Source of the DNA: Leucosporidium creatinivorum
Taxonomy: Eukaryota > Basidiomycota > Microbotryomycetes > Leucosporidiales > Leucosporidiaceae
Length of the DNA: 64,000 nucleotides
Direction of reading: 5' to 3'
Assembly (NCBI GenBank): GCA_001600635.1
Contig: BCKL01000002.1
Coordinates: forward strand, 257,007 to 321,006
The notes below the pieces were generated by a model. The model had not been told where the DNA came from. It did no database searches and saw nothing but the letters and a program-made list of their open reading frames with translations. This document shows positions 24,800 through 55,614 of this stretch, in pieces; the stretch's first letter is position 1; every line of letters starts with the position of its first letter. A program made the translations under genes and the position numbers.

Positions 24800-25876
24800 A
24801 TGCCCCAACCAACGCCTGCAGCAGATACCGAGGCTCAGCTCGAAACGTACCGAAGGATCTTCGCCCTCATCCCCCCGAGCCGTCGGAACCTCCGAGCGGC
24901 GAAAGAGATTGTCACTCGCCTCTTCCGTGATAGAAGAGACCCTTGCTACATAGCGTTCAAGGATGGAACACCCCAAAATCTGAAACCGGAACTTGAAGAG
25001 CTCTACTCATCGAGGGCGCAGGCAAGGCTGCTCATCAATCAGTTCGGTGGGATCCTCGAGGACTCGGAGCTTACAAATGAGCTCGCAGAGGACATGAGAT
25101 GGCTGCTGGATCACCACGAAAAGGCGTACAGCTATTTTTTCAGTATTAAGAGCGTGTTCGGAGCCGGGAGCGGCTACACCAAGTGAGCTTTCGGCGTTCA
25201 CCTCGTTCACCGGCCGAAGAGCTCACAGTCGCCACCTCTTCCATAGACTGCTCAGGCAGAGCTGTAAGCATCTGATCCTTGTGTGCTGTGTGAGAGACTC
25301 ACTGAACGTCACTCTTTTCCCGCTCGGGCGCAGGGGTGCAGATCCGAAACATGTACCCTCGCCTCCGTGAAAGAGCAACCTCGCTCGAGATCACTCAGGG
25401 CATCTACCAAGTAATGCACAACGAGGTGAGTAAATCAGACTGCATCTTGGAGGTGCTCTGTAGCCTGCGCCAGACTAGTGCAGAGGGCGGTCGGCGTCGG
25501 TTGATCTTGCTCCGCTCGGTCAAGCTTGACACTTACGTTTCGCGACCTCTCCATAGCCCCTCAAAGTTGTCACACGACGTCGAAAGCTTGCGTCCACGGC
25601 GCGATCGGACAAAGACAACCACCATCAGAGTGAAGCCGAAGGAGGAGAGTCTTCGACTTCGGCGCCGCACGCTTCGGGAAGGGTAAGTCCCTGGCCAGCT
25701 CGAATCGTGTGAACAACAGCAGCTAACCCCAGTTATCAAAGAACGCTGTCAACCACAGCCTCGGACGAGGAGATTACCGCCGCGAGCAAGGAGGATCGCT
25801 CGCTTCTCGCCGTCTCGGTCGAGCCGAGCAGGCGTACGGAGTGAACGTCTTCGAGCCGGTGTCGAGGAGGCTGTAG
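24800..25876 (+). CDS. member A of a three-gene family of unknown function
   Basis: Function unknown; recognised only by its two relatives in this window (32390-33491 and 54620-55614). The spliced product is about 258 residues. Shared blocks in order: SRRNLRAAKEIV, then DMRWLLDHHEKAYSYFFSIK with VFGAGSGYTK, an intron within the last codon, LLRQS, a further intron, SLEITQGIYQVMHNE, an intron, a charged linker (NHHQSEAEGGESSTSAPHAS), a phase-0 intron, and the terminal exon NAVNHSLGRG to RAEQAYGVNVFEPVSRRL. Intron positions and phases match the relatives. The protein is helical and hydrophilic, with no signal peptide or membrane helix. Reading the last exon one frame over gives an earlier stop, but intron phase and conservation past that stop favour the frame used here. 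It converges with the PKA-R gene. Confidence 0.72.
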
Positions 25877-26092
25877 GAGAACGAGGCAATAGTCTTTGAT
25901 AGTCCACCATGTCCTGAACAGCACTCATCTCGAGCTGCTCGCCGATGCCTTCGCCTGGTCTCGAGCTTCGCCATCTCTCGGGTTTCGTGCCAGAGAGTGC
26001 TGAGACTGACGACGAGTATACATGACAAAAGCTGCTAGTCTGCAACGCTCCTCCCAACACCAAGATAGGACTACAACGATCCTTCCCACGCC

Positions 26093-27799
26093 TTACTCCT
26101 GCTGCTGCGCCGAGCTGGTCGAGTTGGCGCCGTACTCATTCTGCGCCTTGCGTTGGAGGAGGTCGATGACGGGGCCAAGGAGACGGGTGAAGGCCTTCTC
26201 GCCGAGGGTGGCGACGCGGAGACGTCCTTGGCCGGCTTGGGCGCGGACAGTAGCGGCACGAGGAGCCGAGTTGAGGAGGGCGAGCTCTGCGATGCGTAAG
26301 AGGGAGAGCGAGGTCAGCAAGGGAGACGAGGAAGAAGAGAGAACACAGAACGCACCTCCAAAGTAGTCACCCTTGCTAAGCGAGCCGAGAATCTCCTCAT
26401 CAAAGCCCGGTCCACTGGCCTTCCTCCTCCTCGACACCTCAGCTTTTCCACTCTCGATAATGTAGAAGTTCTTGCCGACCTCCCCCTCGACGACGACCGA
26501 CTCTCCCTCCTCATAGACCTTCTCCTCGAGGGCATCGGCAATCTTTGCCCGCTCCTTGGTGTTGAGCGAAGCGAGGATGGGCACCTCGGCGAGGAAGTTC
26601 TCGTACATCTTGCGCTTGCGCGACGTGTGCTCCATCAGGATACTCCTAAACGTGACGCGGTCCAAGGCCCACATGGTCGCGCGCGAGGTAGCCACGACGG
26701 TAGCGGCGCGAGGGGCGTTGTACATGAGGGCGAGCTCTCCGAACGAGCCGCCAGGGCCGTAGGTCGCCACCTTCTTCTCCTCGCCGGGGACGGTCGTCGT
26801 CTGTCCTGGTCCCGAGTAGGTGTGGGTAGGGGGGCCTCGGACCCAGACCTCGAATGTACCCTCCTCGACGACGTAGAAGAAGTCTCCGACGGCGCCTTGC
26901 ACGATGACCTCGGTGCCCTTGTTGACCGAGACCTCCTTCATGGCGTTGAGGACGTCGTTGTGCTGGTCCTCGTCCAGGTTGCGGAACAGCAGGTTGTTGG
27001 CGATGGAAGCCTCGATGCGCTCGCGCTGCGAAGTCGACTTGGCGATGACCGTCTTGGGGAGGTTGCTCGTGTTCTGGTTGGGGTCGAGCGACTCTGCCGA
27101 GACGGAGGTACGCCGACCGAGGTTGTAGGCCGCAGGGATGCCGCCAGTGTGATTGCCTGGTCCGCCGAGGAGCCCGCCGAAGCCGTTGTTGTTCTTGTTT
27201 GGGTGGTAGTTGGGGTCGTCGCGAGGGTCGTCGACTTCCTCCTCGTCCGACTCGTCATCATCGTTGGAGACCTTGCTGTCGCGAGAGCCGAGGGCGAGAG
27301 GAGCGGGCGGCGGCGAGCGAGAGGCGAAGGTGGAGCGGTTGGCGCCGGGCGAAGCGAGGGGAGCGCCGAAGGTGAGGGGAGTAGGGTGGGTGGTGACGGG
27401 AGGTTGGGAAGAGCGGTCTCCAGCGCGAGTGAAGGGGGAAGGAGGCTCGTTATCGCGAGCGGGAGGGAACTCGGAGAAGGGCGAAGGCTTGTTGTCGGTC
27501 TCGAGGGCGCGAGGTCCGCCGAAAGTGTAGCCTTGACCGACGAGCGAAGGAGGAGTGCTCTTGCGCTGAGGAGGCGGCGAAGCAGGTCCAACAGCCTGAC
27601 CTGGCAGCGCCTTGGCCGAGTGAGGGGGCGTCGTGTCCCTCATGCTCGAATCCTCTCCGCCGCGCGCGGTGAGGCGCTCCTGCTCGAGACGCGAGGAGAA
27701 CCAGTTGGCGCAGAATTGGAGAGCGTCGGTAGGCTGAGCGCGAGCGACGTCGCGGTTGAGGTCGCTGAGAATCGTGGTGTACGAGGTGGGGAGCGACAT
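26093..27799 (-). CDS. BCY1: cAMP-dependent protein kinase regulatory subunit
   Basis: The regulatory subunit binds and inhibits PKA catalytic subunits until cAMP binds. The N-terminal 45 residues (TILSDLNRDVARAQPTDALQ and FCANWFSSRLEQER) are an RII-type dimerisation/docking domain. A long Pro/Ser linker leads to the inhibitor site GRRTSVSAES (about residue 230), whose RRxS form means it can itself be phosphorylated. Cyclic-nucleotide domain 1 has the phosphate-binding cassette FGELALMYNAPRAATV. Domain 2 has DYFGG-ELALLNSAPRAATV, with its single intron (about 26.29-26.36 kb) falling inside the cassette. The protein ends STSSAQQQE. Spliced length is about 545 residues. Two intron-like segments in the 5' leader (about 27.83-27.89 and 28.07-28.14 kb) suggest a spliced UTR. 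Confidence 0.95.
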   Translation of the reverse strand: MSLPTSYTTILSDLNRDVARAQPTDALQFCANWFSSRLEQERLTARGGEDSSMRDTTPPHSAKALPGQAVGPASPPPQRKSTPPSLVGQGYTFGGPRALETDNKPSPFSEFPPARDNEPPSPFTRAGDRSSQPPVTTHPTPLTFGAPLASPGANRSTFASRSPPPAPLALGSRDSKVSNDDDESDEEEVDDPRDDPNYHPNKNNNGFGGLLGGPGNHTGGIPAAYNLGRRTSVSAESLDPNQNTSNLPKTVIAKSTSQRERIEASIANNLLFRNLDEDQHNDVLNAMKEVSVNKGTEVIVQGAVGDFFYVVEEGTFEVWVRGPPTHTYSGPGQTTTVPGEEKKVATYGPGGSFGELALMYNAPRAATVVATSRATMWALDRVTFRSILMEHTSRKRKMYENFLAEVPILASLNTKERAKIADALEEKVYEEGESVVVEGEVGKNFYIIESGKAEVSRRRKASGPGFDEEILGSLSKGDYFGGAFCVLSSSSSPLLTSLSLLRIAELALLNSAPRAATVRAQAGQGRLRVATLGEKAFTRLLGPVIDLLQRKAQNEYGANSTSSAQQQE

Positions 27800-28777
27800 C
27801 TCGACGAGGCGAGGTGGGGGGAAAGCTGTACGGCAAGCGCAAGTCAGCAGGGGGACAAGCAGCAGTCGCGCTACCAGTAAAGACCTACAGAAGGGTGGAA
27901 GCGAGTCCCTCTGATGGCGTAAAGACGAGCGAGAGTGAGCGGAGGCTCGAGAGTTGGACTGTAGCAGAGCTAAGGCCTCGACGTACGGTGGGAAGGGTAG
28001 CTTGTAGGTAGTTGGAGCCTCTGTCTGTTCTGCTGCCTATTAGAGGTGAGCTCTGCTGCTTAAAGAGAGGCTGGTCAGCAACGAAAGGGCTGGCTGGCTG
28101 GCGAGCGAGCGAGCGAGAGACGCAAGCCACTCGGTTCAACTCACCTGTAGCTTGTAATCTGTAGACGAGCGAGCTGTAGGCTGTTGGGAACGAGTAACGA
28201 GTTGCTGTACGAGTCGAGCAGGCGAGCGAGAAGAGAACGAGGCGAAAGAGTAGGAGCGCAAGGGAGGCAGCCTCCTCAGCCTCGCCCCCCCTCACTTTGG
28301 CAAGGCCTGGAGCACCTTCCCGAAGCGGCCATCTCGTGAGGCTTGTAGGCTGGTCAAAAGCTCCTGGGTTCTGTATTCAGCTACACAATCACTTACAGCT
28401 GAGACTCGCTTTCCTCGAATCGACCTGTCCTGCAACCGTCCGCTCCGACTTACAAAGCGCCGAACCGTTCGGCTTCGCTGTTCAGCTGCACCCTTCTTCC
28501 CAAAGGCCTCGCGAGCCACACCGCTGTGATCAGCCTTGACTCTGCATCGACCTGATCGCTTCCACTCGCTCCCATTTCCGTTCATCCTTCCATTTGTCCT
28601 TCGCCGAGCTCCGAATTGGCTTCTCACTTTCGGTCGACGAGCAATCGAATTGAAAGAGTCGCGAGGGAGTCTGGTTACACACTATTCGAATCACACGAAA
28701 GCGAGAGAGAGAAGGGATGAAGCTAGAAAGGGAGTAAACTCCCCACAACAGAGAAGTCGAGCCAACACCCGCTTGCT
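27800..28777. promoter_or_regulatory. 5' leader and promoter of the PKA regulatory subunit; NOT3 3' flank
   Basis: About 980 bp with no supported protein. On the minus strand two segments fit introns: about 27.83-27.89 kb (branch GCTGAC, acceptor GTACAG just before the CDS) and about 28.07-28.14 kb (donor GTGAGT, branch GCTGAC). The second includes tetranucleotide runs of GGCT and GAGC (28088-28117). The PKA-R transcript probably starts near or beyond 28.2 kb. Confidence 0.55.
28088..28117. repeat. GGCT/GAGC tetranucleotide microsatellite
   Basis: About three GGCT units followed directly by about four GAGC units. It lies inside the inferred leader intron of the PKA regulatory subunit gene. 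Confidence 0.7.
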
Positions 28778-31700
28778 TTAATCGCTGTCCAAGAACCTGC
28801 GCCGAGGGAGCGGAGGTCAGCGAGGAGTTGAAGGGAGAAGGAGAGCAGAAGACACACTTGTAGCTGAACTTGAAGTCGTTCTTCCTTCGTTGGCACCAGG
28901 ATCCTGCGAGCATAAGTCGGCGAGGTCAGCAATCGCTCTTCTCGGCGTCTCTCCTACTCTGCACCAGAACTCACCCTCCCAGTCGACTGTACAGCATCAA
29001 CGAGAGCGTGAAGTCAGCATCCACCTCACTCAAAGGAAACAGAGAGAGCAGCTCCAACGCACAGTAAAGGTAAACTCCCTGCTCGTACTCGTCGGTAATC
29101 TGCTGCGGCTCGTTGGCGCGCTGAAACCAGGTGAGGTACTGCTTGTGGAAGCGCCATGATTGCTTCTTGAGCTCGGAGGCGGCGAGGTACCTGTTTCGAG
29201 TAAGCGAGAGAGCGAGCGGGAAGGAGAGTGGAGGAGACGGAGGAGCAGGGAGGGCAAGGGAAGGCGATGAGGATCAGTTTCGTTCCGAGACGAGGAAAAT
29301 ACGAGGAGGAGGAAAGAGCAGACGCACTGGAGGTAAGTGCCCTGGCAGTAGTAGAAGATGTAGAACAGAGTGTCGACATCCAGCTTGGTGAACAGCGCCG
29401 GGTTGGCAAACTGTCCTGACGGCTCCTGGGGGTAGTATCCTGGCGTCGCGAAGGGCTGACGGGGGACGTAGTACTTGGGCCTGTTATTGCGAGAGAGTAG
29501 GCGGAAGAGAGCGGGGAGAAAGATGATCAGCGCCGAAGGAGGAACAGAGGAGAAAGCGAGGGGCTCACTTCTCGGCGTCAAGAGGTTGCGGTACGTTCGA
29601 GAATCCCGAGTCGAGGATCTGGTGGATCGCTCCGAGGTCGTTATCGCGGTTCATCGCTGTGTGAGAGGTCACTCTAGGTCAGCTCTCGCCCTGCGCCTCC
29701 CCTCGCCCCTCAGAGCGGGACTCACACTTCTGCTTAGCGCTCTCAAAGCTCGTCACCAAGTCCGCCAAACTACTCGGCAACCTCGGCTCATTAGGCCTCT
29801 GCTGCTGCTGCTGTTGCGGCTGCTCCTCGGCGCTCTTCTGCTCGCTCGAACCATCGCCGGCGGTGACTGTGGGTTGAGGGAGCGAGGCGGATGAAGGTGC
29901 GGGAGAGGTCGCAGGTGCTTGCGATTGCGAGGAGACGGAGGGTGCGGAGGAGGCGGAGGGGCCATTCGAGTTCTGCGAAGTGAGCGAAGGGTCAGCGAAT
30001 GGGGGGAGAGAGAAGGGAGCGAGGTCGAGACGTACGGGAACGGAAGCTGAGCTCATCGAAGGACTGGGCTGTCCAGCACCTGGAGGCGCGAGCGGCGAAG
30101 GTAGCGACGACGAGGCGTCGACCGACTTTGAAGTCTCGGGAGTCGAGATTGCCGGTGCTAGAGGTGCCTCCGACGAAGGGGTCGATGCAGGTGAAGCGGA
30201 GAGTCCGGGTGGCGGTGCAGCAGCAGCGGTGGTTGCTGGTGAAGGCGCAGGCGCGGCCGCCGAGCTGAGTGTCGGTGTAGGAGGAAGGTTGGCCGCTGCG
30301 GCAGCGGCGTAGCGAATGGTGGGCATCGGTGCTGGTGCTGTCCTTGGTGTAGGTTGTGGGCCCGATACCGAACGCGAAGGAGTGACGAGGTTGGTCGGCC
30401 GAGGGGTTGTCGAATCGAGCGTTGACTTGCGAACGGTCTTCTTGACGGGACTGCTGACTTCCTCCTCGACTGGTGCTGGTGCCTTCTTGGCGGCAGGCTT
30501 CTCCTTTGCTGGTGTTTTTGGTGGAGCGGCGGGCGTCGGTATCGAGGCATGCGAGGTGTCGTCCGCGACCGAGGTGGAATCATGCGAAGATTGGAAGTCG
30601 TCGCCGCCGACCTGGTACATATCCTCCTCCTCTTGCAGATTCAGCTCGTCGTAGATGCCTTCGTCTTCCTCGAAGTCCTCCTCCTGTGAGCGTAACGAGA
30701 GGTCAGCTCTCCGTCGCCCTGCTCGGCGCCTCCTCCCGCTTCGACTCACCGTATTGCTCTCGACAAAGTAGGCAATGTCGTCCTTGATATCTGCCACTGC
30801 TTCGGTCTGCAGGTTGCCGTTCTCCAGTAGTCGAAGGATGAGCTCCAGTCGGTTGATGTGCCACGCCCGTCGTTCGTTGAGCGTCTCGAGCTGATCCAGC
30901 CGCTGTTCCCGATCCGAATCCTTCTTCTTCTTGAGGAGTTGCAGCGTCTCGATCTCGGCTTCGGCCTGCTCGACTTGCCGACTCAGCTCGTCGACCATGG
31001 TGGTCGTCCATTGGCATAGTTCGAGCTTCTGCTGCTCTTTCGGGTCGAGCTTGGCGGCGGCGCTGAGCCCTTCCTTGGAGAAGGCCTTGGTCTTCATCTC
31101 CTTTTCGCATGCCTTGAAGCGCTCCATTTGCTGTGAGAGTTCGACGCATCAGCATACAGGCGCGCCGAGACGAAGCGAGAGCGGGAATCGAGGGACGCAC
31201 CGTTTCAATCAGCTTGCGGTTGTCGAGCAATGGCTGCTTGTCCTTGATGTCGTTGGACTGCATCCATGTCTTGATCTGGTCGCGTAGGCGCTGCAGCTTC
31301 TTGATCTGCGACTTGAGGTCGACCTCGAGCTTCTCCTTTTGAGTCTGGTTGGTGCTCGTCTGGATCTTCTCAAAGATCTGCAGCGGAGGAGCGCAGAGTC
31401 AGCCGCCGAGTTGCTGTAGGATAGTATAGACCCTTTCGGTGCGCACCCCTTCGAACAGCTCGACCTGTAGATGGAATCCAACGTCAGCTTAGCGCTCTCC
31501 ACCTCGCTCTCACCGCTAACGGGCTACTTACGCCCTCGGCGACCTTCTTGAGCGTCCGTTCAATCTCGGCTGTAGTTGCAAAGGTACAGAAAGTGTCAGC
31601 CCACTCTGCTTCCATGCCGAGAGCTTGCAGCCTTCGAATGCCAGCTCGTCCCCGCCGCATTCGAGGGTGGCGCTACAACGTCGCCTCTGCTGCTCGTCTG

Positions 31701-31897
31701 AGCTAACGAGCCACAGCACTGAAAGCAGCTCCCTGGCGAGCACATATCGACAAGTCTTTTGTGCGCGCCGAGCTGCTCCCCGTTGAGCTCGAAGCGGCGC
31801 ACAAAGGCGAGTTGAAGCTGGGAGAGGGCAGTCGAAGGGGAGAGGCGAGTTGTGGGTTTGGCTGTAGGCTCTTACTTTGTAGCTTCCGTGCTGCCAT
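28778..31897 (-). CDS. NOT3: CCR4-NOT complex subunit NOT3/NOT5
   Basis: NOT3/5 is a core subunit of the CCR4-NOT deadenylase complex; it contacts NOT1 and NOT2 and monitors ribosomes. The N-terminal coiled coil is unmistakable: MAARKLQ, then [71 protein letters not shown] and [17 protein letters not shown] long Pro/Ala/Ser linker with Gln runs follows (30.6-29.75 kb). The C-terminal NOT2/3/5 box has [55 protein letters not shown] and a final DFKFSYKFLDSD. The start (31897) gives a 7-residue first exon followed by a 300-nt intron, by far the longest in the gene. The full N- and C-domains argue for an intact gene. Confidence 0.95.
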
Positions 31898-32389
31898 TGC
31901 TGCTGCCCTTCTTGCTGTCGCTGCCGGAGGTGTTGTAGCAAAGTAGAAGCGAGGTGAAGCAGGCAGACAGTTCGAGCGGAGACTTGGGAGAGGGCGAGTC
32001 GTGGGCAGAGACTCCTTTAAATTTTGAAGTCGTTTAAGCGAGCTTTGGAAGGGCGTAGGAGATGGATATGGTTTCTGCACGTACTCTGCAGCACGAGGAG
32101 CTGCTCTACCGCCACTAGTGAGGCCGAACGAGCGGCTCGGCGTTCGCGAGCTCTCGCATGGCTGACGAGGTCGCTGAAGACCTACAGCGCGCATTTGAAG
32201 GGTCTGGAGTCGTTTTTGAACGTTTCGCTTGCGATCCTCCTCTCACTTGCCGTATCAAAATCGTCTCCAAGTTGCCCAACGGCCCTTTCGCCAGCGCCGA
32301 GCTCTCTCAGGCGGCCCATTGTTCTACCTAACGGTAGGTTCTCCGTAATTACAGCCGATAGCACGTCAAAACTTGTACGCTCTAGCTCC
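31898..32389. promoter_or_regulatory. NOT3 promoter and 3' flank of family member C
   Basis: About 490 bp, no coding frame supported. A TTTAAATTTT stretch at about 32014-32024 lies roughly 120 bp upstream of the NOT3 start on the minus strand and could act as a TATA-like element. This is inference from position and composition only. Confidence 0.4.
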
Positions 32390-33491
32390 TCACCAACTAC
32401 GCCTCGGCATAGGCTCGTAGACCCTCACTCCGTACGCCTGCTCGGCTCGACCGAGCAGCAGCCTTCCTCGGCCACGGCAGCTGCGTTTAGCCTGACCAAG
32501 GGAGTGACCAATCTAGGTACGCGATGAAATCAGTGCAAGTCTGCGTCAACTAAACAAAAGCAACAACTGACCCTGCGCGGCTCGCCAGAATGGTCATGCT
32601 CGGCGGGGCCGGACTCGACTCCGTCGCCGCGAAGGCGCTGGCTGGCAGGCACGAAGCGAGGCTTGAGAGCGGAAGCTTTCACAGGCGTTTTGAGCTCCTA
32701 TTGAGGTGAAGGGGGGTTCGCAACACAGGCACAAGCGAAACAGCGACGAATAGTTAGGGAGAGCGAAACGACGAGACGTGTAAACGCCCAGCTGCTGCTT
32801 TCAGACAGAGGCGAGAATACTCACCTCATGGTGGAAATTCTTGTACACCACTTGAGTGACCTTGAGGGCAGTCACATTCGTGTCAAGTCCGTAGCGAGCG
32901 CGAAGTTCAACCGCTGTCAAAGGTGATGGTGGCTCAGCGTGCGCCGGCGCTGGTAGACATCTCAGCATAGACTGTTGATACTCACCGTCGATACTGCTAG
33001 AGAGTAGTCTGAGGTTGGTCGTTAGCTTCCCGTACGAGACAATTCGGCGCCGACTCCACCTCGGCGGGAACGAATCTCCCGCTTGACATCACTCACTTGC
33101 TGTAGGTCAAGGTGGTTCCGAATAAGTTCTCAATCTTTTTGTACTGCTTATGAGCCAGCGGCATGTTGTCCTCCAGCCACTCGTCGCTGGCAGCTTCGGC
33201 GTCGGTGATGCCCTCCAACACGGCGGTGAACTCTCTGACGAGCTCCTTGGCTGCCTCCTGAGACGTGTAAGGTACAGCTCTACCTGTTTTGCCGAACCTC
33301 AACCATACAGCAGGATCTTGCTGTTCGAAGGGGATCTCGGGTTCGTGAGGAGGGGGACCGAGGAAGACCAGTTCGAGCAGCTCCACTGCCGCTTTGAGGT
33401 TGCGTCTGCGCTGGCGAAGAGAAGATCCATCAATTATTTGTCTATGAGCTTGATGGTGGGCCGCGTGTTCGGTGGTGATGACCATAGGCAT
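32390..33491 (-). CDS. member C of the three-gene family of unknown function
   Basis: Shares all blocks of members A and B: RRRNLKAAVELL, DEWLEDNMPLAHKQYKKIEN with LFGTTLTYSK, LLSSS after the first intron, ALKVTQVVYKNFHHE, a basic/acidic linker exon (ELKTPVKASALKPRF to EHDHSGEPRR), and a terminal exon ending LLGRAEQAYGVRVYEPMPRRSW. Intron phases agree with A: within the last codon of the first block, then phase 1, 0 and 0. The N-terminal half has an insertion (PPPHEPEIPFEQQD region) missing from B. Spliced length is about 250 residues. The start is the ATG at 33491 (MPMVITTEH); the open frame continues upstream without a convincing alternative. A TATA-like TTTAAATAG (33589-33597) sits about 100 bp upstream. 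Confidence 0.7.
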
Positions 33492-33588
33492 AGTGGAAGA
33501 AGCACTCGCCGACTCGCCGAGACTTCGATGGGACGAAGCTTGGGAGAGCAGGAAGGAGGTCGGTAGGTGGCGAGCTCGGAGCCAAGAC

Positions 33589-33597
33589 TTTAAATAG
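33589..33597 (-). promoter_or_regulatory. TATA-like element upstream of family member C
   Basis: The sequence TTTAAATAG on the plus strand reads CTATTTAAA on the coding strand, about 100 bp before the ATG at 33491. The spacing suits a fungal TATA element; there is no experimental support in the sequence itself. Confidence 0.4.
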
Positions 33598-33906
33598 CCT
33601 TGCTCCACGGCCCTGCAGCACTTGTCTAAAGCCTGCCGCACTGCCGGGCGTCTAAAGCCTACCGTTCGGCGATGACAATCTGAGCTTGGTGAGCGTCTCT
33701 CGGGGCTTTCTCTCTAACTACGCGCACTGCAGGATACTCTTCATTGCTTATCTACTTTACCCTGCACCCTACTCCAACCCCAGGATAGCCCTGCATTCAC
33801 TTCAATGTCGTCCCCACCCTGCTCGGCGAAAGGAGAACGAAGGGAGCACAGCCTGAATCTAGTTTTCTCGCTATGCTGAGCAGCTTCAAGATCATCTGCA
33901 TATTGC

Positions 33907-33927
33907 CAGCTCAGCTCAGCTCAGCTC
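33907..33927. repeat. CAGCT pentanucleotide repeat
   Basis: About four tandem CAGCT units in the divergent intergenic region upstream of the gene at 34251. Short and possibly variable in length; no further meaning is visible. Confidence 0.7.
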
Positions 33928-34250
33928 GTCGGTCTGAACGTACCGCCATTGGATCCCTTGGCTGAGCAAGGAGGCTCGCTCAAGCTCGGAGGGGCTGGAG
34001 AGGGGCAACAGGAAACGGAGAAATAGAAGTTGTAGCATTCCAACTCTGCCAATCAGCAAGTGCAAGCCTTCAGCCGAATTCTGAAGTTGGATAAGTTTGA
34101 TAACCATTAAGTCGAGGATCTGCAATGTGCCGGCGCCGGCCGCTTGAATTCACTTCTTGACCTCGAACCACTCGCTTATACTCGCTTCGACTTTGCCACC
34201 GCTCGCCTGTCACTCACCTACAGCAGCTTCAGCGCCCTACACAGCCCAGC

Positions 34251-35878
34251 ATGAACGACAGCCAGCCCATCGCCGTCGGCGCCCCTTCCCACCCCTCCCT
34301 CTCGCTGCCCGAGCCTCTGCGCCAGCTGCTCCACCTCCGAGTGCAGGCCGACTCTGCGCTGAATCACCCTTCACTCGAAATGGAATTGGCAGAAGGAACC
34401 CACGGCCAACAAGCAGGCAACGTCCGACAAGCCCTCGAAGCCACCATCGCCAAAGCGCAGGCCTGGCGAGGGGAGCTCACCTCCAAGCTGTCGGCCGAGA
34501 ACGAGGCGAGGGGGCTGTTTGTCGAAGCATGGGCGCTGGGAAGGATCGGCGAGTTTGATGGCACGAGCCCAGCGGAGCTGCCCCTTCGCCTGCAAGCCTC
34601 GTTAGAACGCTATCAAACCGCCGCTCGCCTCCTCAACCTCCCCGAGCCGCCGAGGCTGGACCAAGTGCCGAGCGTCACTCGGCCAAAGGAAGGACTCGCC
34701 CCGCTCGTGCTGCCCGAGGTCGCCAGCTGGGTCGGCGAGATGCTCGCAGAGTGGGCCCGAACGCAAACGACTTTGGCATTTTCGTCCTTGCTGCTCACGA
34801 GCGAGCAAGTGATTGATGAGGCTGCGCTGGCCGATTTGCTCGACATGGCATGCAGGCGTAACGTCCAAGGTGAGCTATCTTACTCGGATGGTGCCCCGCC
34901 GATCTCGACGCTGACTTTCGGTCTTTCACATTCGCCGCGCCCCCTCGCTGGAACAGCCCTCTTCACTCCCCTCGACCCTACCTCCCCCGCCGGCAACGCA
35001 CCTTCATCCGAGGAAGCCGGCACCGTCATGGGCAACGCCCGCCTCATCCGCGACATGTCGACCCTCATGCCCTTCTCCTCGGCCCCCTCCCTCTGGGCCC
35101 GTCGCATTCTCTGGGCCACCCACGTCGCCGATGTACGCTTCGTCGAAGCGAGCATGTCGGCCAACCGATTGGTCGATGCTGCTAGCGCCGCCGCTGCCGT
35201 CCTGCAGGACAAGACGACCGACGATAGGACGAGGAATGAGGTTCGCCAGGTCCTCGAGGCGACGATTCGGAGGCTCGTTCCGTTCGAGAGGGCTCAGGGA
35301 GGATGCCTACTCGTACTCGGACGGGTCATGCTCGAGGCGATTGGAGCTCTTTACCTCGGCAGGGATGAGGCGCTCCTCGCGGAGCGTAGGAGGAGGGACA
35401 GCTCGCGTGACCCGACGCAGGAGGAGGAGGAGCAGAGGGTCCCGGTACCAGAGAACGAGACGGTTAGGGAGACGAGGCAGGTCTTCATCCGAGGTGAGCT
35501 GCGACGTCTGGTTGTCCCCCATCGCCGAGCTAATCCCCTACCCTCTTCGCAGCCGCCGGCCTCTTCGAGAACGCCTACGCCTCTTTCCTCCGCACTCCTC
35601 AACACATGCGCTCCAAGCGCGAAGAGCGTCGCCTCCTCCGCCGCCTCGAAACGACCTACTGCAACCTAGAGGAGCTCGACAACGAGACGCCCGAGGTGGT
35701 CCAGCTGCGCTCCGAGCGCGTCGAGCGGGCATTGTGGATCAATGATCGCTTGTTGGCGTTGGGGGATAATGATGATGATGAGGCGGATGATGAGAGTGAT
35801 GCTGAGGGGGACGCGGGGGATGAGGATTCGGATGAAGAGCTCGGGTTGAGCAGTCGGCTGGGGAGGAGTACGATCTGA
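34251..35878 (+). CDS. unknown helical protein with acidic C-terminal tail
   Basis: I do not recognise a family with confidence. Three exons are joined by two good introns: about 34873-34960 (branch GCTGAC) and about 35492-35553, both phase 1. The product of about 490 residues is Ala/Leu-rich and looks all-helical, possibly TPR-like: SAENEARGLFVEAWALGRIG, LQASLERYQTAARLLNLP, VASWVGEMLAEWARTQTTLA, RRILWATHVADVRFVEASMS, then AAGLFENAYASFLRTPQHM and ERRLLRRLETTYCNLEELDN. The end is strongly acidic (NDDDEADDESDAEGDAGDED). Helical repeats plus an acidic tail faintly recall the fungal translation-termination enhancer ETT1, but no diagnostic motif supports that. There is no signal peptide or membrane segment, so a cytosolic or nuclear location is likely. 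Divergent from family member C. Confidence 0.7.
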
Positions 35879-36367
35879 GGGGCTGTAAGGGGTTCAGGGA
35901 TGTTGTAGTGACGAGGGAAGTACCGCCGAAACGACCAACAGTGCTGTTGTATACACGATTCGACTCATCTTGCTGCTCGGCGGAGAGGCTCTCGGCGAGA
36001 GAACAGCGAGTTGCTGATCCATAGGCTATTAGCATCTCAGAGACTCAGAGAGGAGGTTCTTCCAGCGTGTAGGACACTTGCTGAGGTGCAGTAACTCCCT
36101 CAGAGAGACATCTCTCGTTCGCTTCGGCGCTGCCCCCGCGACGGTTCGGCGAGGAGTCAAATGATGTCTCCTCTCTCGTTCTGCAGCAAAGCAGACTGGG
36201 ACTCCCTTGTCGTCCATTGTTCATCCTATTTCGGCAAGCCCTTCCGTCCTCAGCACACTTCAGAACCTTCATTTCGTAGTTAACGCCCTCATCCCCACCT
36301 GGGCGCCGCCCTCCTTCCCGCTCTTGTCTCCGACCACACTCTTGCACGAACAGCCATCCTGTACGGG
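35879..36367. other. intergenic region before the Zn2Cys6 regulator
   Basis: About 490 bp between two plus-strand genes. The short open frames on both strands show no domain. It holds the 3' flank of the 34251 gene and the promoter of the Zn2Cys6 gene. The word GCCGAA/TTCGGC recurs several times, but this is common across the window. Confidence 0.4.
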
Positions 36368-42302: not shown

Positions 42303-44104
<1,802 letters not shown>

Positions 44105-45888: not shown

Positions 45889-47480
45889 CTACCTCGCCTG
45901 CCCGTGCACATAGCCCCCATCTCCATTCCCTCCGCTCACCGTCCTCGGTGCAGCCGACCATCCGAGGTTCCCTCCACTCTGCGGCGGCGGCATCCTCTGC
46001 CCAAAGTACTGCAATCCGCCTCCTCCCTGCGCCGCCGAGCCTGAAGGACCCGAGAAGGAGGATCTACTCGAGTTGGGAGCGGTGAGGAGGGAGCGAGGGT
46101 CGAGGTGCTGCTGATGTTGCTGGAGGGAGTGGTGTGGGTTGTGGTCACCGTCGGAGGAGTAGGTGGGTGAGGGAAGGGGGTTGGTCGTTTGCGCCGAGGG
46201 GTGAGGGAGGTGAGTGTAGGGAGCGTAGGGAGGTGGATTGGTATTGGAGGAGCCGTAGATTGAAGGAGGTTCGTAAGGCATGGGCAAGCCGGATGGAAGA
46301 GGGTACGTGTCGAACGTTGGTGTCGGATAAGGGGTGGAGCGGTGGGAGGCGGGCGAGTAGAGCGGTTCCTCGTGCTGCTGTTGCGGCTGGTGTTGGTAGT
46401 TGAAGGGATTGGGGTTCTGAAAAGAGAGAGACGAAGGCCCCTTGCGAAGGCGAGGCGAAGGGAGCTCCGTCTTGTGAGCCGACCTAGGCGAAACGGGCGC
46501 TGAGATCTTGAAGTCCGAAACGCTCGTTCGACGACCAGCCGACTGCTGAGGCGAGGTACCAGAAGTGCCGGTGTAGTTCCAGGTTGGTGGAGTGTACGCT
46601 CGCCACGTTACGTTCGTTCCCGACGAGATGGGAGGGATGGAGGATCCCGCCGAGGCCGCGGCCTGTTGGTCGCCAATCGTGCGAAACGAGCCAAGAGACG
46701 AATTGGAGGTAGAAGCAGAGCCGTAGGAGTGTAGTGACGAGTTGTGCTCGTCGGTGTATTGTGGCTCGTACTGCAAGGGCGGGGCCCACTGCGGAACGGG
46801 GGGAGGGGGAGGCGACTCGTCGCTACGGTCGTTAGAGACGGCCGAGGAAGCACTGGCGCGCCGTTTCGGAGGTCGATTGCGGACCTTGCGTATGATGCCA
46901 GGTAGTAGGGAAGGGTCGCTGCGAAGGAAGAAGCCCGAGGGATGCCTGCGAGAACCGCGATGAGGCCGAGTCAGCTTCGGCGATTCTCGCGACAAGCTCT
47001 CATCACAGCAGACTCACGCAAAGACGATGTAGGCTGCTGACGAAGTCTTGCGCTCTCCACTGCGACGCCGGTCCGAAAGGCGTCGGAAGCCGTAGTAGCT
47101 CAGTTGGCGGATGAACGAGCTCAAGCTGCAGAGAATCGCCGAAGAAGCAAGGTCAGCTCCGTAGGTCCTACAAAGCGCTCGAGGTGCTCAGGAAACGAAG
47201 GTCCAACTCACGAGCGAAACTCCCACTTGGGGGAGAGAGCGCGTCTAGCAGCAGCATCGTTCACCGTGATTGAGAAGGCATCATCGCCGACCCAGTGTAG
47301 ATTGTCGGGGTCGTAGGGGTTGGTGAGCAGACTGTAGGAGAGTGGCGAGGGAGGCAAGGTGTGGTCAGTATCCGCGTTCCCCTAGATCAGCAAGCTCGGA
47401 GCGAGGAATGAGTGGTAAGGGAAGAGAACGGCGCACTCATGGAGCTTCTCGATGAATTGAGAGCGAGTAGGCTTGGCCAT
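45889..47480 (-). CDS. HSF-type transcription factor
   Basis: A winged-helix DNA-binding regulator. The HSF domain occupies the N-terminus and is split by introns: MAKPTRSQFIEKLHD, LLTNPYDPDNLHWVGDDAFS, ITVNDAAARRALSPKWEFRS, LSSFIRQLSYYGFRRLSDRR (recognition helix region) and HPSGFFLRSDPSLLPGIIRK. Residues match the HSF pattern F--KL, W---G-SF and SSF-RQL-YYGF. The remaining 330 residues are Pro/Ser/Gln/Tyr-rich and disordered, with His/Gln runs and a phosphorylatable RRTSVSDF. I see no leucine-zipper trimerisation region after the domain, so it is more like Mga1/Sfl1-type factors than true Hsf1. The start at 47480 puts the domain at residue 8; the frame is open further upstream. It shares a 1.9-kb divergent region with MRC1. 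Confidence 0.9.
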
Positions 47481-49410
47481 CAGGAGCAGGGCTCCCCGAG
47501 GCTGGTAGGAGCACGAAGAGGAAGGAGACGATGGGTGAGATGCCGTTGAGGGAGGGGGAAAGGCGGAGAGCGAGCAAAGTGACCTTGGAGCTCTTCCCCC
47601 TCTCCCCGCTTCTTGAGTTTCGTGCCTAATTGACTGCAGCATGCTTATCTTGCGCCAGCTTTATTTTCCTTCCCGGGACGGCTTGCCTCTCACCGGACGC
47701 CTGAAGGGCAAGCACGCTCGACTTGAAACCAGCTCAGAGAGGTAAGATGGTCGCCGAGAGGACCGGCAGCGAGCGTTGTAGGTCATTGCGAGCTCGGTTC
47801 GGACCCACCCCACTCTGGCAGGAAGTTCAGCGTGGAGTAGTGACCCTCCGCCCTCGCCGCCACGGCCCGAGGTGCTGGCAGGGAGAGGCCTGCCGGCGGC
47901 GCCGAAGGAAGTTGGACTTCGGACCAAACGAGTCAAGGTGCGGGAGCGTACTGCGAGAGAGATCGGGCAGATTGAGACTGTTGGTATGTTTATAACTGGT
48001 ATCGTATCAATCCGTAAGCAGGCGAGATTGGCGAAAGGGCAGGTCCATGAACGAGGAGAGTCGAGGTCGCCCCGAAGGCCTGCTCAATTACTTGTGGTCG
48101 TTCGATGTTTCCCTCGAGTAGGGCGACGGTTATGAAGGTACAGCATCGTGCATGGGCGTATGCCCGCTCCAACAGAAGAGCAAAGCAGATCAGGCAAAGA
48201 GCAGAGACACTTCTGAGAGTCGCCGAGAGGCTCCTACTCGTCACCGTCTGATTACGATCTCCCACTTCAGCCAGGCTGATTCCTCAGCTTCCGAGGAAGG
48301 TCGCAGCAGGCAGGTCTTATCCTCTGCACGGCTTCGACCTTCACTCGGTCGAGGAGATGTGCTGTCTCGGGGCTCGGGAGGTCGGAACAGAGGCCAAGGG
48401 AAGATATACGAGGACTTGCGATGATCTGCAGCTGTTGTACAGCAGAGCGGGCAGCTTCAGAGGACTTGAAAGGGTGCAGAAGGCGTCAGGCGGTTTCCCT
48501 GGCCATGCGATAGCCTCGGAACCAAGCTCGTCAGCGTGAGAGCGGCGAAGACCTCACGGTGAGGAGAAGTCTTCGTCGGCAGCTGGCCATTCTTTCGTGG
48601 GTCATTGTCTTCCATGTGCTGCACCCTTGTGAACGAGTCGTCAGATGAGTAGCGAAGGCTGAAAGAGGGAATAAGGTCGGAGTAGTGGGTCTCCGCCCGG
48701 GGCAACGAAGACCGAGTGTGGCTTATCGCACGCTGCAGAAAAGCAGCAGCTCGCCGAGCGACGTGCCGCCGTATGTGAGGCTTGGTGTGCAGCAGCCCGA
48801 GCCTAGCAGATGTGCCAGCTGAGCCCAGCGCCGAGCCCGAAAGAGAGTGACAAACCAACCCTTCTTGCTCCTCCAGGGCAAGCCTGTTGTAGCTTAGTAG
48901 GTTTCTGCATTCTTACCTCGGCATAAAGAGTGTTGCCGAGTCTGATCCCGCCCCTCAGACGCTGACTTCAGCCCTCTGTCGGTCGATATAGCGCTCCAGC
49001 AGAAACTCGGCTTCCTGCAGTCGAAGAGGGGTGCGCCGAAGCCAGAGCTGAGCAGATAGCACGAGCAGTGAGCTGTAGTGTCGGAAGTCGATCTTAGGTA
49101 GCTGCTCGCGAAGAGACGAAGTTGTAGTCGAATGCAGCGACGCGACGACTGTTTGACCGACTTTCAAGCTTTCGCTCCTCCCGCTCTCTTCGCTTGTCTC
49201 GTTCTCAGGCTTGGCGAGCCGTACAGCGTCAACAAAACCATATCGACCTACAGCGCGCTCTCGTCACACTCCCACTTCGGTACACCCTTCAAAAGCGACG
49301 CGACCGACGCGCGCCATCACTTTCCGACTTCGCGCGGTCGCTTTCGAGCTGCACCTCACCAGGATCCTGTAGAGCACCAACTCAAAGCTACTCGAGTCAC
49401 CTACAGCACC
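47481..49410. promoter_or_regulatory. 1.9-kb divergent region between the HSF-type factor and MRC1
   Basis: The longest gene-free stretch. Short frames on both strands lack domains. At 49132 an ATG opens a frame continuous with MRC1; the added 93 residues have leader-like composition, so I treat this as UTR. The sequence directly before the MRC1 ATG (ACCTACAG, then CACC) resembles an intron acceptor and suggests a spliced leader. Long upstream regions are common for regulators such as the HSF-type gene, so much of this may be its promoter. Confidence 0.45.
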
Positions 49411-52400
49411 ATGGAATCTCCTGCTGGCACCATCATCGCCGATTCTGAGCCAGCGCCTGCGTTCACCTCGTCTCAAGCCGGCCTTTCCTCCCCTTCCGCC
49501 TCTGTCGACCAACCTACAGCTTTGACCGTCGAATTTGCTCCAGCTGTTGCGCCTGTACGTCACGCCAAGGCAGGTGCCAGGACGTACGGTCGCCGCGCTC
49601 CCGTCGCCGACAACGACGCGTCGACAAGTGATGCCGCTGGCAAAGCCCTCGTCGCGCACTCGACTACTGTGATCCCCGAGACGGATTTCAGTCCACCGAA
49701 TGGAGATCTTGATGAGGCGGTCGAGGAAGCAGCGGGCTCGGCGATCGTGAGCGGCGACCTTTCCTCCTCGTCGCCCTCCAAGCGCACCGAGCATTCGACC
49801 GACCCTACTTCCGAGGACGACACGCCCATCGCCAAGAAGAAGCCTACTGCTCTTGCCACTTCGGCTAGCCCTCAGCCCGCTGGAGCAGCCCAGGCAGCGC
49901 TCAGCGACGCGTCAAGCGATGGCGAGGATTCGGACGGCGGAGAGGAGACTGGCGCGCTGGCCTTCTTCAAGAACAAAAAGTCTCTCCAGGAGCAGATGGA
50001 CGAGATTGATCGCATGGACGACCAAGATTTCGCCAGCGCTGCCGTCCTTCCCCTTCCTCTCCCAGCTCTCAGCTCGGACTCGACCCTCACCTCGCTCGTC
50101 ACCTCCGACAACCCATCCACGCACCTTACCACCTACCCTCAGCCACCTCGCGCCATTCTCGCCTCCTCCTCCCTCAGCGAGCTCACCAGCGGTCCCTTCC
50201 ACTCGGCCACCTTCTCCTCCCCTCGCGGCGACCCCCTCCTCGACCAAATCGCGGCCACTCTGCCACCACTGCCCGAGCTCCCCAACCTCACCGATGGCGA
50301 TGTCAGCATGAGCGATGCCGACGATGAGGAGGAGAGCGAGCAGGTCAGCCGAACTGCGCGACCCAAGTCGTCCAAGCCTCGGCGAAGGATCATGGACTCG
50401 GACGAGGAGGATGAGGAGGCAGACGACCACCCTCAGCATCCTCGCTCCAAGTCGTCAGTCATTGTCGAAACGTCGCCGGAACAGGAGCGACTCTCGAAGA
50501 AGGAGCGTCTTGCTTTGCTGGCGGCGAAGCGAGCGCCTCCTCCACCGCCGGTCATCGAGGAGGAGCAGAGGGTGCGGAGCGCTAGCGTCCTCAGCGATGG
50601 TGATAGCGAGGCAGAGGGCAGGCAGAAGAAGAGCAAGGCCAAGGCCAAGTCTACTAAGATCAAGGTGAGCCGTCCTCCCCTGCACCCGCCGCCGACCGAG
50701 CTGACCCTTCCTCGTTCGCAGGGAGCTCTGTCCAAAAAAGCCGAGGCAGAGATGCACAAGGAGACTGCTGCTCTTCAGCGCAGTGAGTGTTGACGTTGTC
50801 TCCTTCTCGAGCTCTACTAATACCTCTCTCTCGCAGACCAAGATGCTCGACTCCAGCCTCGCGTCAAGCACATTATCAAGGTCGCCGACATCGTCAAGAA
50901 GACGTAAGCTCCTTGGATTCTTCGCCTGTTAGAGCCGAGAACTGACCTTTGCACCTCATACAGCGTCAACCGCCCCATCCTCGGCCACATCCCCCCTCGC
51001 GAGCACCACAAGCCCGACGTCGTCACCCTCTCCTCCGATTCGATCCAATCCGCCTCCGACTCGCCCGCCCGCTCTACCTACCTCTCCGAGAAGGCGCAAG
51101 GCAAGCAACGCGCGATGAGCCCCATCGACCACACCCCCATCGCCGTTCGCCGAGTCGTTCATCGCCTCAACGCTCTTCCCGCTCCCGCTCTCAAGACTCT
51201 CGCGCCAGCCACCCCGGCGGCTGAGGACGACGACGAGGAGGAGCTTCTTCCTCTCGACCAGATGCTCGCCAAGCGACAGAAGGACGCCGAAGCCAAGAAG
51301 CTCGCCGAGCAGAAGGTCGCGGAGGCCAAGAAGTTCGCCGAGATGAAGGCTGCCGCCGCCGCCAAGACCGCTGGCGAGAACCGGACTCGTCGAGCAACCA
51401 CCGTCCTCTCTGATTCGGACTCGGATCTTGAGATCGAGGGCGCACCAGCTCCCGTCCGGTCTCGCGTTTTCGGCACGCCAGGCTTGGATCGCGCTTCGAC
51501 TCCTCGCGCTCTCACTGCCACTGAGCGCAAGGTCCGAGGCTTTGGCGGACCTTCCTCGACCTACCACCAGGAGGAGGACCCCTCCGAGAGTCAGCTCGCC
51601 GATGCAGGTCACACTTTTGGCCGAGACCTCATGGCCAACCACCACGTCGCCGCTCCCCGACGACGCACGAAGAAGGGTCCCAAGCCTCAAGCACCCCACT
51701 CCATCGACAGCGACTCTCTCAACCGCGCGCTGCTCAACAAGGCCAAGGCGCAGAGTCTCGACACGGTCATCAAGAAGCGCTCGGCATTCGTCAGGAGGAG
51801 GAACGAGGAGCAGGAGAAGCAGAGGCTCGCGGGTCCCGAGGTCGCCAAGGTGGACGTCAAGAGCATGCTGGAGAAGAAGGAGAATGCGTTACGGGAAGCG
51901 GCGGAGAAGGGAGCGGGAGAGGAAGACGAGGACGGGGCGGATGAGGATTACGAAGAGGAGGAGAATGCGCTTGACTCGGACGTCGCGATGGACAGTGGAT
52001 CCGAGCTGCAGGGACCATCCTCTTCGCAGAGGGCAGTTCTCGACGAGGAGGCAGAGGAGGATGCCGAAGCAGAGGGCCCGGCGCCTCAGGAGGACGACGA
52101 TGAGGAGGAGAGCATGCCTGCTCCCGTCATTCGTGGCAAGAAGGTTCGCCTCCAGGTCGCCAGCGACGACGAGGACGAGGAGACTGCTCTCACCGCTGGC
52201 GCCACGGTCCCCGCTGTCGCCGCCACCCAGGTTCCCTTCGACATTCAGGAGGAGGGAGGTCGCCGAATCGCCTTCCCTGGACTCGAGGACACCGAGGATC
52301 GAGGCTTCTCGCAGTTCTTCGACAGTCAGTTCAGCCAGGACGTCGGCAACGTCAACGATGTAAGCTTGTCGTGCCTTCTCTTGCTTCTCGGTCTCGGCGA

Positions 52401-54408
52401 CTGACTCGCTCGGCCCTTCCCTACCGCAGGTTGAGGGATTCCACCGCCCCGACAAGTCGGACATGGGAGCCCCCGCACCGACACTCCTCGGACACGTCTT
52501 CCTCAACACGCAAGAGCGAGCTGAGGACGTCGAGCTGCTCGAGGGCCGAGGCGACTTCCGCGACGTCGAGCCCAACACTCCTCGCGAGGCGGCCGCTCCT
52601 CGTCAATACATCAACAAGCACGGGTTCGTGTCTGATCTCTCTCGTCTCCATCTCGAGCTCGTACTGACGAGTCATGCGAACAGCCTCTTCACCCAAACTC
52701 GCCCCGCCAACCTCTTTGGCAACTCTCCCGCCGACTCCCCGCATGGCTCCGAGTTCTCGCAGCTCGGTTCCCTCCCTCGCACCTACTCGACATCTCACGA
52801 GTCTCAGATGACCCAAACTCAGCTCGCCGCGACTCAGACCCCCACCCAAGCTTCCAAGGACCCCAACCGCCTGCGCCGAGGCAACGCCCTCCTCGGCTAC
52901 GAGAGCTACAATTCTCTCCCCGCCACCGAAGTCGTCCGCGAGGAGGATGAGGAGGAGGACGAGACGCAGGAGGAGTCGTACCCTACTGCTGCTCAGCCGA
53001 CCAAACCGACGAACGCCTTCGAGCTCCTCCGCGCCGCCGCCAACAAGCCTCATTCGCCCGTTGCTTCCGTCGTCGCTGCTCCCGCCAAGAAGACGAAGAG
53101 CGCCTTCATCGATACGGAGGCCGACATGTCGGACGAGGAGGAGGGTGCATTGGGACGGGCGAGTGGCGATGAGGACGAGACGGGCATGGACGCCGAGTTG
53201 GAGTCGCTCGTCGATAACGAGGAGGTGGATCGCGATCTGAGGGATCAACAGGACGAGATGGTTGATGAGCTCTATGCGTGAGTGCCTCTCCTCGCTTTCT
53301 CGGACATCGAGCAGTCGCCGAACTGACCTCGTCGTTTTCGCTTCGCAGGGAGGACATGGCCAAGAAGGACGCCGAGGAGCTCGCTCGTGCTCAACGCATC
53401 GCCGACGGAAAGGAGCGCAACAAGCGTGGTGCTCTCGACCTCGACGACGACGACTTTGACGACGAGTGGGGAGTCTCGAAGCGACCGAGGCAGAAGCAGC
53501 AGAGGATCGACAACATGACGACCGCCGAGCTCAGTAAGCTGCGCTTCGCTTATTCTTCTCTTCACTGCTGACCTTCACCACGTCATACAGCCGCCAACGA
53601 GGAGACCCAGGCCTTCGCCATGCACATCAAGGAGGGCTTGACCACCGAGGTCAAAATCGGCGAGTTTGACTTCCTCAAGGGTCCCGAGGAGGAGCAGGAC
53701 GATGCCGATGAAGAGCAGGAGGATGGAGACGAGCAGATGCTTCCTCCGCGCATCTCGGTCCAAGAGGCGACTCGATTGGCCATCGAGCGAACGAAGCTGG
53801 TGAGCCCGATCTCTGGTGCGCTACTACTAGGGACGCTCGCTGACGCTCTCTCTTTTGCTTCTCCTCCTTATTCAGCGCGAGCAACAGCGCGAGCGCTCAC
53901 CCTCGGTCGCCGTCCCCCACTTCGGCAACTCGAGCTCTCCCCTTCCTCAGTACAAGATCAAGGTCAAGTCGGTCGCCACCTCCATCGTCGCAACCACTTC
54001 TCGCGCTGCCGACGACTACACCGACCTCGATGTACGTTTGACCTGTCACCCGCTTTCGCAACCTCGCTGACTCTTGCTCGCCCCGCTCGCAGTCCCAAGG
54101 CATCCTCAAGATCACCTCGCACTCGTTGCAGTACAAGTTCGACTCGCGCGACGAGAGTCAAGGAGGCACCAACGGTACTACTGCAGGCGCCAACAGTGCT
54201 GTGTACGTTCTCCCTTCTTCTCGGCGACTGCTCGGCTCTCTCAGCTGACCTTGATCCCCTGTCCTCGAACAGCACCTCCTTCGCTAAGAACCCCAAACGC
54301 ACTACTTCAGCTCCCACTCTCGCTGGTGCAGGCGCGGCGAAGAAGGGTGGCAGACCTCTCACGTCCAAAGGCAGCTCGTTCAGCTTTAGGAAGGGAGGGT
54401 TCTCGTAG
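49411..54408 (+). CDS. MRC1: MRC1/Claspin replication checkpoint mediator
   Basis: Mrc1 travels with the replication fork and carries the Mec1/ATR signal to the Rad53/Cds1 kinase. This large acidic, Ser-rich protein of roughly 1,450 residues has short Lys/Arg-Glu helices, for example LLPLDQMLAKRQKDAEAKKL and VKSMLEKKENALREAAEKG. An SQ/TQ cluster is encoded at about 52.68-52.86 kb (ESQMTQTQLAATQTPTQAS and neighbours), the expected checkpoint-kinase targets. The MRC1 family core (53.1-53.5 kb) includes KSAFIDTEADMSDEEEGALG, the DRDLRDQQDEMVDELY helix and DDDFDDEWG. The C-terminus is basic with SFAKN and SSFSFRKGGFS. About nine short introns. The start at 49411 gives MESPAGTIIADSE; an in-frame ATG 279 nt upstream is less likely. 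Confidence 0.88.
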
Positions 54409-54619
54409 GCGGTTCGGTAAAAGAGAGAGAGAGGGAAAGACGAAGGGGTGGGTTTGGGTTCATTGGTTTAGTGTTTGCTTGTTCGCTCGTTGTTATGCCA
54501 TCTTATAATGCTCGCAGCCGCTGAAAGGTGTCGACGAGACGAGCGCCGAGCGAAGAATCGCAGATGGGCGCTGTCAAACTATCACATTGGACCGCATGCG
54601 TTCCGGAATCCATCCCTCA

Positions 54620-55614
54620 TTACACTCCCGTCCTTCTCGACACCGGCGCAAAGACGTTTACTCCGTACACCTGCTCGGCTCGACTGAGACGGGGAGAAGC
54701 GAACGATCCTTCCTGCTCGCGACGGTGTGATGCTCGCCCGAGGCTGTGGTTGACAGCAGTCTGTGAGGTTTGAGGTCAGCTGCTGTTGCTCTCGCGACTC
54801 GCACTGAGGAAAGAGGACTTACCCAGCCCGAGGCGGGCGCCGAGGTAGCCGACTCCCCTCCCGCTTCAAGTTCTCCACCGGTGTGCTCTTCCCCAGACTC
54901 ATGCCCTTGAGGAGAGCTGCTACGTGGGCGGTACCTGGGTACAGTCGTACGGTGTGCCCCTCGTTGCCTCAGATCCTGTCGGAGAGGGAGGTTAGTAAGA
55001 TCGGTCAGCGCCGAGTTCGGCTCAACTGCGCTAGATGGAGGCGAAAGGCCATCGAGCTCGAGAAGAACACCAGCATGAGGTCTACTAACCTCTCCATGAA
55101 GCTCCTTGTAGATGATCTGGGTGATGCGAAGTGCTGAGGCGTTTTGAGGGATCTCGTAGCGCGAGCCGAGTTGAGTCCCTGCGAGAGTGGGGAGACGATC
55201 AGCGAGGACCGAGAGGGCTGAAGAGTGTATCAAATCACGATTCTCCTGAAGCAATCTGTAGGCAGTGCCAATGGTCAGTGATGCAGCAAAGTGAGCCCCG
55301 ACAGTGTCGACGCCTCACGTATCGTAGCCTCTATGAGCAGCGAACAGGTTCTCAATCATTCGGTACTGCTTGTAGGCAGCATCACGGTGCTCCATCAACC
55401 ACTGCTCATCCCCTGCGTGTGTGTCCGAGATGGTGTTGACGATTTGGTCGAACTGCTCGATGAGCGCCTCTGCTTCCTCTCGCGACGTGTTGAGGGACCG
55501 CAGAACCTCCTGCGCTGCTCGCAAGTTGCGACGACGCTGACTTAGAGCAGTTGAGGAGAGAACGTCGCGATGCTGCTGCACGTGGGAGTAGTGCTTCGGC
55601 GAATGTGTGGGCAT
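54620..55614 (-). CDS. member B of the three-gene family of unknown function
   Basis: About 225 residues after splicing. Blocks shared with A and C: QRRRNLRAAQEVLRSL, DEQWLMEHRDAAYKQYRMIE with NLFAAHRGYDT, LLQEN after the first intron, ALRITQIIYKELHGE, a linker exon (SGEEHTGGELEAGGESATSA) close to that of A, then a phase-0 intron and the terminal exon TAVNHSLGRA to RAEQVYGVNVFAPVSRRTGV. It is closest to A, matching nearly codon by codon in the last exon. The start is the ATG at 55614 (MPTHSPKHYSH); the frame stays open to 55986 with further ATGs, so a longer N-terminus is possible. A run of ten G residues lies just upstream (55628-55637). Converges with MRC1, 211 bp apart. Confidence 0.7.

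Follow-up and report, generated by a model that had tools for sequence, protein, structure and literature searches.

We studied three genes (genes 1, 2 and 3) within a 64,000-nucleotide (nt) stretch of Leucosporidium creatinivorum DNA (contig BCKL01000002.1, positions 257,007 to 321,006 of the forward strand), which is called the window in the following. As judged from their sequences, the genes are old paralogues in which signs of a recent exchange are limited to the 3' end. Gene 1 (24800-25876, forward strand) codes for 253 amino acids (aa) in exons 24800-25182, 25247-25263, 25334-25425, 25557-25682 and 25733-25876, which are based on GT-AG borders, intron phases and homology. Its sequence also offers a possible alternative acceptor of intron 4 located 9 nt downstream (exon 5 from 25742), which keeps the frame, is in register with gene 3 and results in a protein of 250 aa. 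All counts reported for gene 1 were taken with exon 5 from 25733. Gene 2 (32390-33491, reverse strand) codes for 251 aa (exons 33491-33097, 33008-32986, 32913-32825, 32697-32572 and 32512-32390) and gene 3 (54620-55614, reverse strand) for 231 aa (exons 55614-55319, 55255-55239, 55178-55090, 54975-54823 and 54760-54620).

Once spliced, the five exons of each gene are open from ATG to stop at the coordinates of a preliminary description of this DNA, which were known beforehand when the gene models were made. That description had also claimed that intron positions and phases agree among the three genes, which holds: all introns (12/12) show GT-AG borders, and the phases are 2, 1, 0 and 0 in 3/3 genes. 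Within the protein alignment of the three genes, introns 1 and 3 fall into an identical column in 3/3 cases, intron 2 has one common column save a two-residue gap, and intron 4 is located in a gapped stretch directly before the NHSLG/GHSLG block. This agreement is more telling because exon 2 is so short (only 17-23 nt). The donor of intron 2 in gene 3 (GTGATT) is weak by eye. Upstream of the ATG of gene 3, the frame stays open and more in-frame ATGs are present. Here, we chose the given start because an MP start is common to all three proteins and aligns with those of genes 1 and 2.

The modelled proteins share 30-37% identity according to blastp. Full-length comparisons (one direction per pair, using the three sequences as database) provide E-values of 5e-42 for genes 1 and 3, 9e-36 for genes 2 and 3, and 8e-19 for genes 1 and 2. 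For the same pairs, Smith-Waterman scores of the whole proteins are 348, 309 and 209, compared to maxima of 78, 73 and 60 among 1000 shuffles per pair. If exon 5 is left out, the scores are 202, 253 and 141 (shuffle maxima 69, 64 and 55; 1000 shuffles each). That is, the top-scoring pair is formed by genes 2 and 3 without exon 5 and by genes 1 and 3 when exon 5 is included. Based on these scores, the predicted proteins are homologous along their length and chance is excluded. Common to all three are the blocks RRNL(R/K)AA, A(Y/H)..(Y/F)..I..(L/V)F, an LL straight after intron 1, (I/V)TQ..Y...H.E, and HSLG...RAEQ.YGV.V..P..RR within the terminal exon. Thus, the ordered conserved blocks reported earlier are present, while the earlier pattern of the TQ block was slightly wrong, i.e., TQ is preceded by I or V and three residues separate Y and H.

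Domain searches and predicted protein architecture

With regard to Pfam, no member of the three reaches a cut-off, and not even two members match the same family. Below the thresholds, five families match gene 3 (best Mis12), two match gene 1 and none matches gene 2. We regard Mis12, SIKE, MAT1, RasGAP_C and Rx_N (gene 3) as well as DASH_Duo1 and DUF7500 (gene 1) as chance similarities, since each concerns a single member and stays below its cut-off. NCBIfam provides 0 families for the 3 members, and PHROGs shows nothing significant (4 families with one member each, best E-value 0.05). Both misses tell little for a fungus because the two libraries are prokaryotic or phage. Searching the PDB sequences with a profile of the three proteins gave nothing significant either (5 matches up to an E-value of 10); the best match, a type IV pilin (E-value 0.2), is taken as chance. 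Within Pfam, NCBIfam, PHROGs and the PDB sequences, we can thus confirm the earlier statement that no described domain is recognised.

The genes might nevertheless be diverged members of a described family that is missed by profiles, e.g., a kinetochore coiled-coil protein. What speaks for such an origin are the weak matches of Mis12 (PF05859; E-value 0.0069, 16.6 bits) to gene 3 and of DASH Duo1 (PF08651; E-value 0.081, 13.2 bits) to gene 1. The similarity to the Mis12 kinetochore family is local (residues 9-94 of gene 3) and covers a region that is modelled as helical at low confidence. However, both matches miss their curated cut-offs (25.7 and 25.4 bits, respectively), Mis12 does not match genes 1 and 2, Duo1 does not match genes 2 and 3, and gene 2 is without any Pfam match at all. 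The lack of a significant PDB sequence for the three-protein profile points in the same direction, as does a Foldseek search with the low-confidence model of exon 1, which provides no significant match (4 matches, best E-value 8.0). A hidden described family is therefore unlikely in our view.

We also screened viral contigs (with profiles A1, A2 and A3 as well as one exact DNA pattern) and prokaryote genomes (with profile A1), where no relative was confirmed. These four profile scans cover only sites with a match to short peptide patterns (63, 58, 30 and 63 sites, of which 0 were confirmed by tblastn). Since these collections are viral and prokaryotic, fungal databases may well contain the family in good number. 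In the accessible portions of the literature on red yeasts and their relatives (expanded, orphan or duplicated families, including PMC4469406) and on gene conversion in gene families, the family is not described, where a text search is blind to a nameless family.

The modelled proteins are basic (isoelectric points 8.2-9.8), hold at most one cysteine each and reach top 19-residue hydropathy values of 0.16-0.74, i.e., no strong hydrophobic stretch is found. Given these properties, the proteins are probably soluble and intracellular. The top 11-residue hydropathy means near the N-terminus (0.61, 0.58 and -0.06) would speak against a signal sequence, but hydropathy is a crude measure and refers to the modelled starts, and gene 3 has further in-frame ATGs upstream. 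The AlphaFold2 model of exon 1 (based on three rows) is all helix at low confidence, with a predicted local distance difference test score (pLDDT) of 61 and a predicted template modelling score (pTM) of 0.35. The model of exon 5 is mostly without regular structure and shows one five-residue helix (pLDDT 56, pTM 0.15). From the models, the proteins are probably helical. Their architecture would consist of helices in the N-terminal portion (exons 1-3), followed by a Ser/Glu/Gly-rich linker with little conservation (exon 4) and by a C-terminal tail that is conserved (exon 5). As a short linear peptide, the tail could dock on a partner common to all copies. The helical parts would bind copy-specific partners, which would turn the paralogues into adaptors. 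We put this putative function forward tentatively, and doubt prevails.

Divergence of the body and similarity of the last exon

When all aligned codons are taken together, the Nei-Gojobori method (NG86) provides nonsynonymous divergences (dN) of 0.49-0.73 and synonymous divergences (dS) of 1.16-2.3, where dS values this high are rough. In an exon-by-exon application, dS is not computable in four comparisons. As a further measure, we counted identical codons among those that encode shared residues (excluding Met and Trp) and related the counts to the expectation for silent-site saturation. Within exons 1-4, i.e., the body of the genes, 29/57 codons are identical for genes 1 and 2, 33/61 for genes 1 and 3, and 29/63 for genes 2 and 3. 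Given the codon usage of the three genes, the respective expectations are 23.7, 24.2 and 27.3 (P = 0.08, 0.008 and 0.36), while the usage of four neighbouring reading frames provides 27.0, 27.1 and 31.5 (P = 0.33, 0.07 and 0.80). Since the identical codons are near the saturation expectation, the body is old, which is least clear for genes 1 and 3. That is, silent sites of the modelled exons 1-4 have reached saturation or come close to it. The recent expansion proposed in the preliminary description is in conflict with these values as well as with the low protein identity reported above.

The picture for exon 5 is summarized by dN and dS values of 0.15 and 0.25 (genes 1 and 3), 0.50 and 0.53 (genes 1 and 2), and 0.55 and 0.89 (genes 2 and 3; all NG86). 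Identical codons amount to 15/21 for genes 1 and 2, 27/33 for genes 1 and 3, and 10/18 for genes 2 and 3. The expectations from three-gene codon usage are 7.5, 11.8 and 6.4 (P = 0.0005, 0 of 20000, and 0.049), and those from the four neighbouring frames 9.1, 14.1 and 7.6 (P = 0.005, 0 of 20000, and 0.16). The silent-site excess of the predicted exon 5 is thus clear for genes 1 and 3, less so for genes 1 and 2, and only marginal for genes 2 and 3.

On the DNA level, blastn aligns the 3' stretch of gene 1 (25641-25870, forward strand; end of exon 4, intron 4 and exon 5) with the matching stretch of gene 3 (54632-54861, reverse strand) at 79% identity over 233 columns, i.e., from the interior of exon 4 through intron 4 nearly to the stop. 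Given the silent-site excess, this is our candidate conversion tract. When introns of genes 1 and 3 are aligned and compared to shuffles, intron 4 shows a z-score of 5.1 and the other three introns show 0.0, 2.5 and 2.2. For the other two pairs, z-scores range from -1.6 to 1.4 over eight comparisons. Gene 2 shares a 54-nt core of the last exon, which codes for the conserved C-terminal tail (25814-25867 on the forward strand in gene 1; 32402-32455 on the reverse strand in gene 2). The core is 89% identical between genes 1 and 2, while genes 2 and 3 show 79% over 53 nt. No similarity between genes 1 and 3 is visible by eye farther than about 10 nt downstream of the stop.

One possible explanation of the 3' similarity is that the last exon is constrained as DNA or RNA, e.g., by a regulatory element, an RNA element or a second frame used via alternative splicing. 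Indeed, frame 1 of the last exons (25733-25876 forward, 32390-32512 reverse and 54620-54760 reverse) stops at the same place in 3/3 genes, after a common SVEPSR(R/C)TE. We regard this common stop as a probable by-product of the DNA similarity, and no obvious acceptor for frame 1 was seen, where acceptors were not searched systematically. A constraint would also be in accordance with the differences between genes 1 and 3 within exon 5, which show no third-position concentration (5, 8 and 8 at codon positions 1, 2 and 3), and with the 54-nt core being common to gene 2 though genes 1 and 2 are not alike in intron 4 (z-score -0.6). On the other hand, the last exons do not fold clearly better than shuffled sequences (z-scores -0.63, -1.81 and -0.24; the middle value, from gene 2, is reached by 8/200 shuffles), and the window holds no Rfam match at gathering thresholds. 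Furthermore, the similarity of genes 1 and 3 extends through intron 4 into the end of exon 4, which neither coding nor a local element explains. Constraint as the whole cause is thus doubtful.

Gene conversion at the 3' end would explain together why genes 1 and 3 are alike in coding sequence and in the intron. The 54-nt core shared with gene 2 needs either a short tract or constraint, because no intron similarity accompanies it. From the sequence comparison, we consider a conversion between genes 1 and 3 at their 3' ends fairly probable, while gene 2 would be linked to them either by a shorter exchange or by strong constraint. A similarity of paralogues that is uneven along the gene and includes non-coding parts is also reported for the mammalian BEX/WEX/GASP genes (PMC1274310). 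These concern unrelated proteins and organisms, such that only the pattern of evolution is compared.

For the whole explanation, i.e., old paralogues with a helical head, a linker and a C-terminal tail whose 3' ends would have undergone conversion, we estimate a probability of about 0.45. Several observations weigh against it. First, the closer similarity of genes 1 and 3 is to some degree also seen outside the 3' end: a looser DNA alignment (61% over 916 columns, introns included) begins at 25001 and ends some 10 nt behind the stop, the all-codon dS is 1.16 vs. 1.64 and 2.3 for the other pairs, introns 2 and 3 show the elevated z-scores given above (2.5 and 2.2), and the 33/61 identical codons of exons 1-4 have P = 0.008 or 0.07 depending on the codon table. 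Therefore, part of the 3' similarity may reflect common descent plus constraint. Second, the exon 5 excess of genes 2 and 3 is marginal (P = 0.05 or 0.16), and when exon 5 is tested directly against exons 1-4, only genes 1 and 3 show a significant difference (Fisher P = 0.006, vs. 0.085 for genes 1 and 2 and 0.33 for genes 2 and 3). Third, exon joins and expression are predicted from DNA for all three genes, and the N-terminus of gene 3 would differ if an upstream ATG were the true start. Finally, neither the exon 1 nor the exon 5 model is reliable, as both are below useful confidence, and the docking of the tail is conjectural.

Neighbouring genes, copy number and implications

Genes 1 and 2 are separated by genes for a protein kinase A regulatory subunit (26093-27799) and for a Not3-type subunit of CCR4-NOT (29030-31127, reverse strand), such that the copies are not in tandem, as had been noted before. 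The Not3-type gene shows an N-terminal match at 29679-31127 and a C-terminal NOT2_3_5 match at 29030-29581. A frame at 52463-53281 (forward strand), which lies left of gene 3 and is oriented towards this gene, has a weak MRC1-like match (24.1 vs. a cut-off of 25 bits) and is perhaps a replication-checkpoint mediator gene. A further frame at 558-1439 (reverse strand) matches the Pfam family RdRP (E-value 1.7e-19), which suggests that the organism has an RNA-silencing polymerase. Among the other neighbouring frames, we find a fungal transcription factor domain and a weak match to a leucine-rich repeat family below the cut-off. In total, 20 frames were scanned with Pfam, of which 13 are without a match at the thresholds used.

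The window has a GC content of 0.60 and its introns are short, which, along with the neighbouring matches, is in accordance with a fungal origin. A tRNA scan found none within it. The 8-mer AGGTCAGC (reverse GCTGACCT), which contains CTGAC and which we take to resemble the branch-point signal of introns, occurs 30 times on both strands compared to 4.6 expected occurrences. Similarly, CGCCGAGC (reverse GCTCGGCG) is found 63 times on both strands of the window (22.9 expected).

Three non-adjacent copies in both orientations within 31 kb could be the visible part of a very large, lineage-specific family that is still spreading. With random scattering, three per 64 kb would imply several hundred copies in a genome of about 20 Mb (an assumed size). 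The extrapolation of the preliminary description to many more copies does not follow from three copies in this window. Recent spread is at odds with the near-saturated silent divergence of exons 1-4. Moreover, no fourth copy or fragment was found within the window when three profiles (exon 1, exon 5, entire protein) were compared with its 2133 stop-to-stop frames with a minimum length of 12 aa (best outside match with an E-value of 0.1). Inverted repeats of at least 16 nt within 3.2-3.3 kb around each gene (shorter ones were not sought) are short, imperfect and do not consistently bracket the genes. We thus rejected a DNA transposon or its cargo, since no terminal inverted repeats flank the copies in this search. 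A local cluster broken up by rearrangement explains three copies in 31 kb no less well than a very large family with dispersed members would. Such a cluster, split by other genes, is the simpler explanation and needs fewer assumptions. All in all, we consider a large spreading family quite unlikely.

Still more speculative and improbable would be a sizeable undescribed fungal family in which helical bodies diverge freely while the C-terminal exon is kept alike by repeated conversion, i.e., variable heads with a common tail. Fungal genomes commonly hold paralogue families without a known domain, and the family alone is therefore modest news. More useful is the difference between an old, diverged body and a last exon that would be either recently exchanged or tightly held. 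It makes the tail the part that is likely worth testing for a shared partner. In addition, families of this sort should not be dated by their most similar segment.

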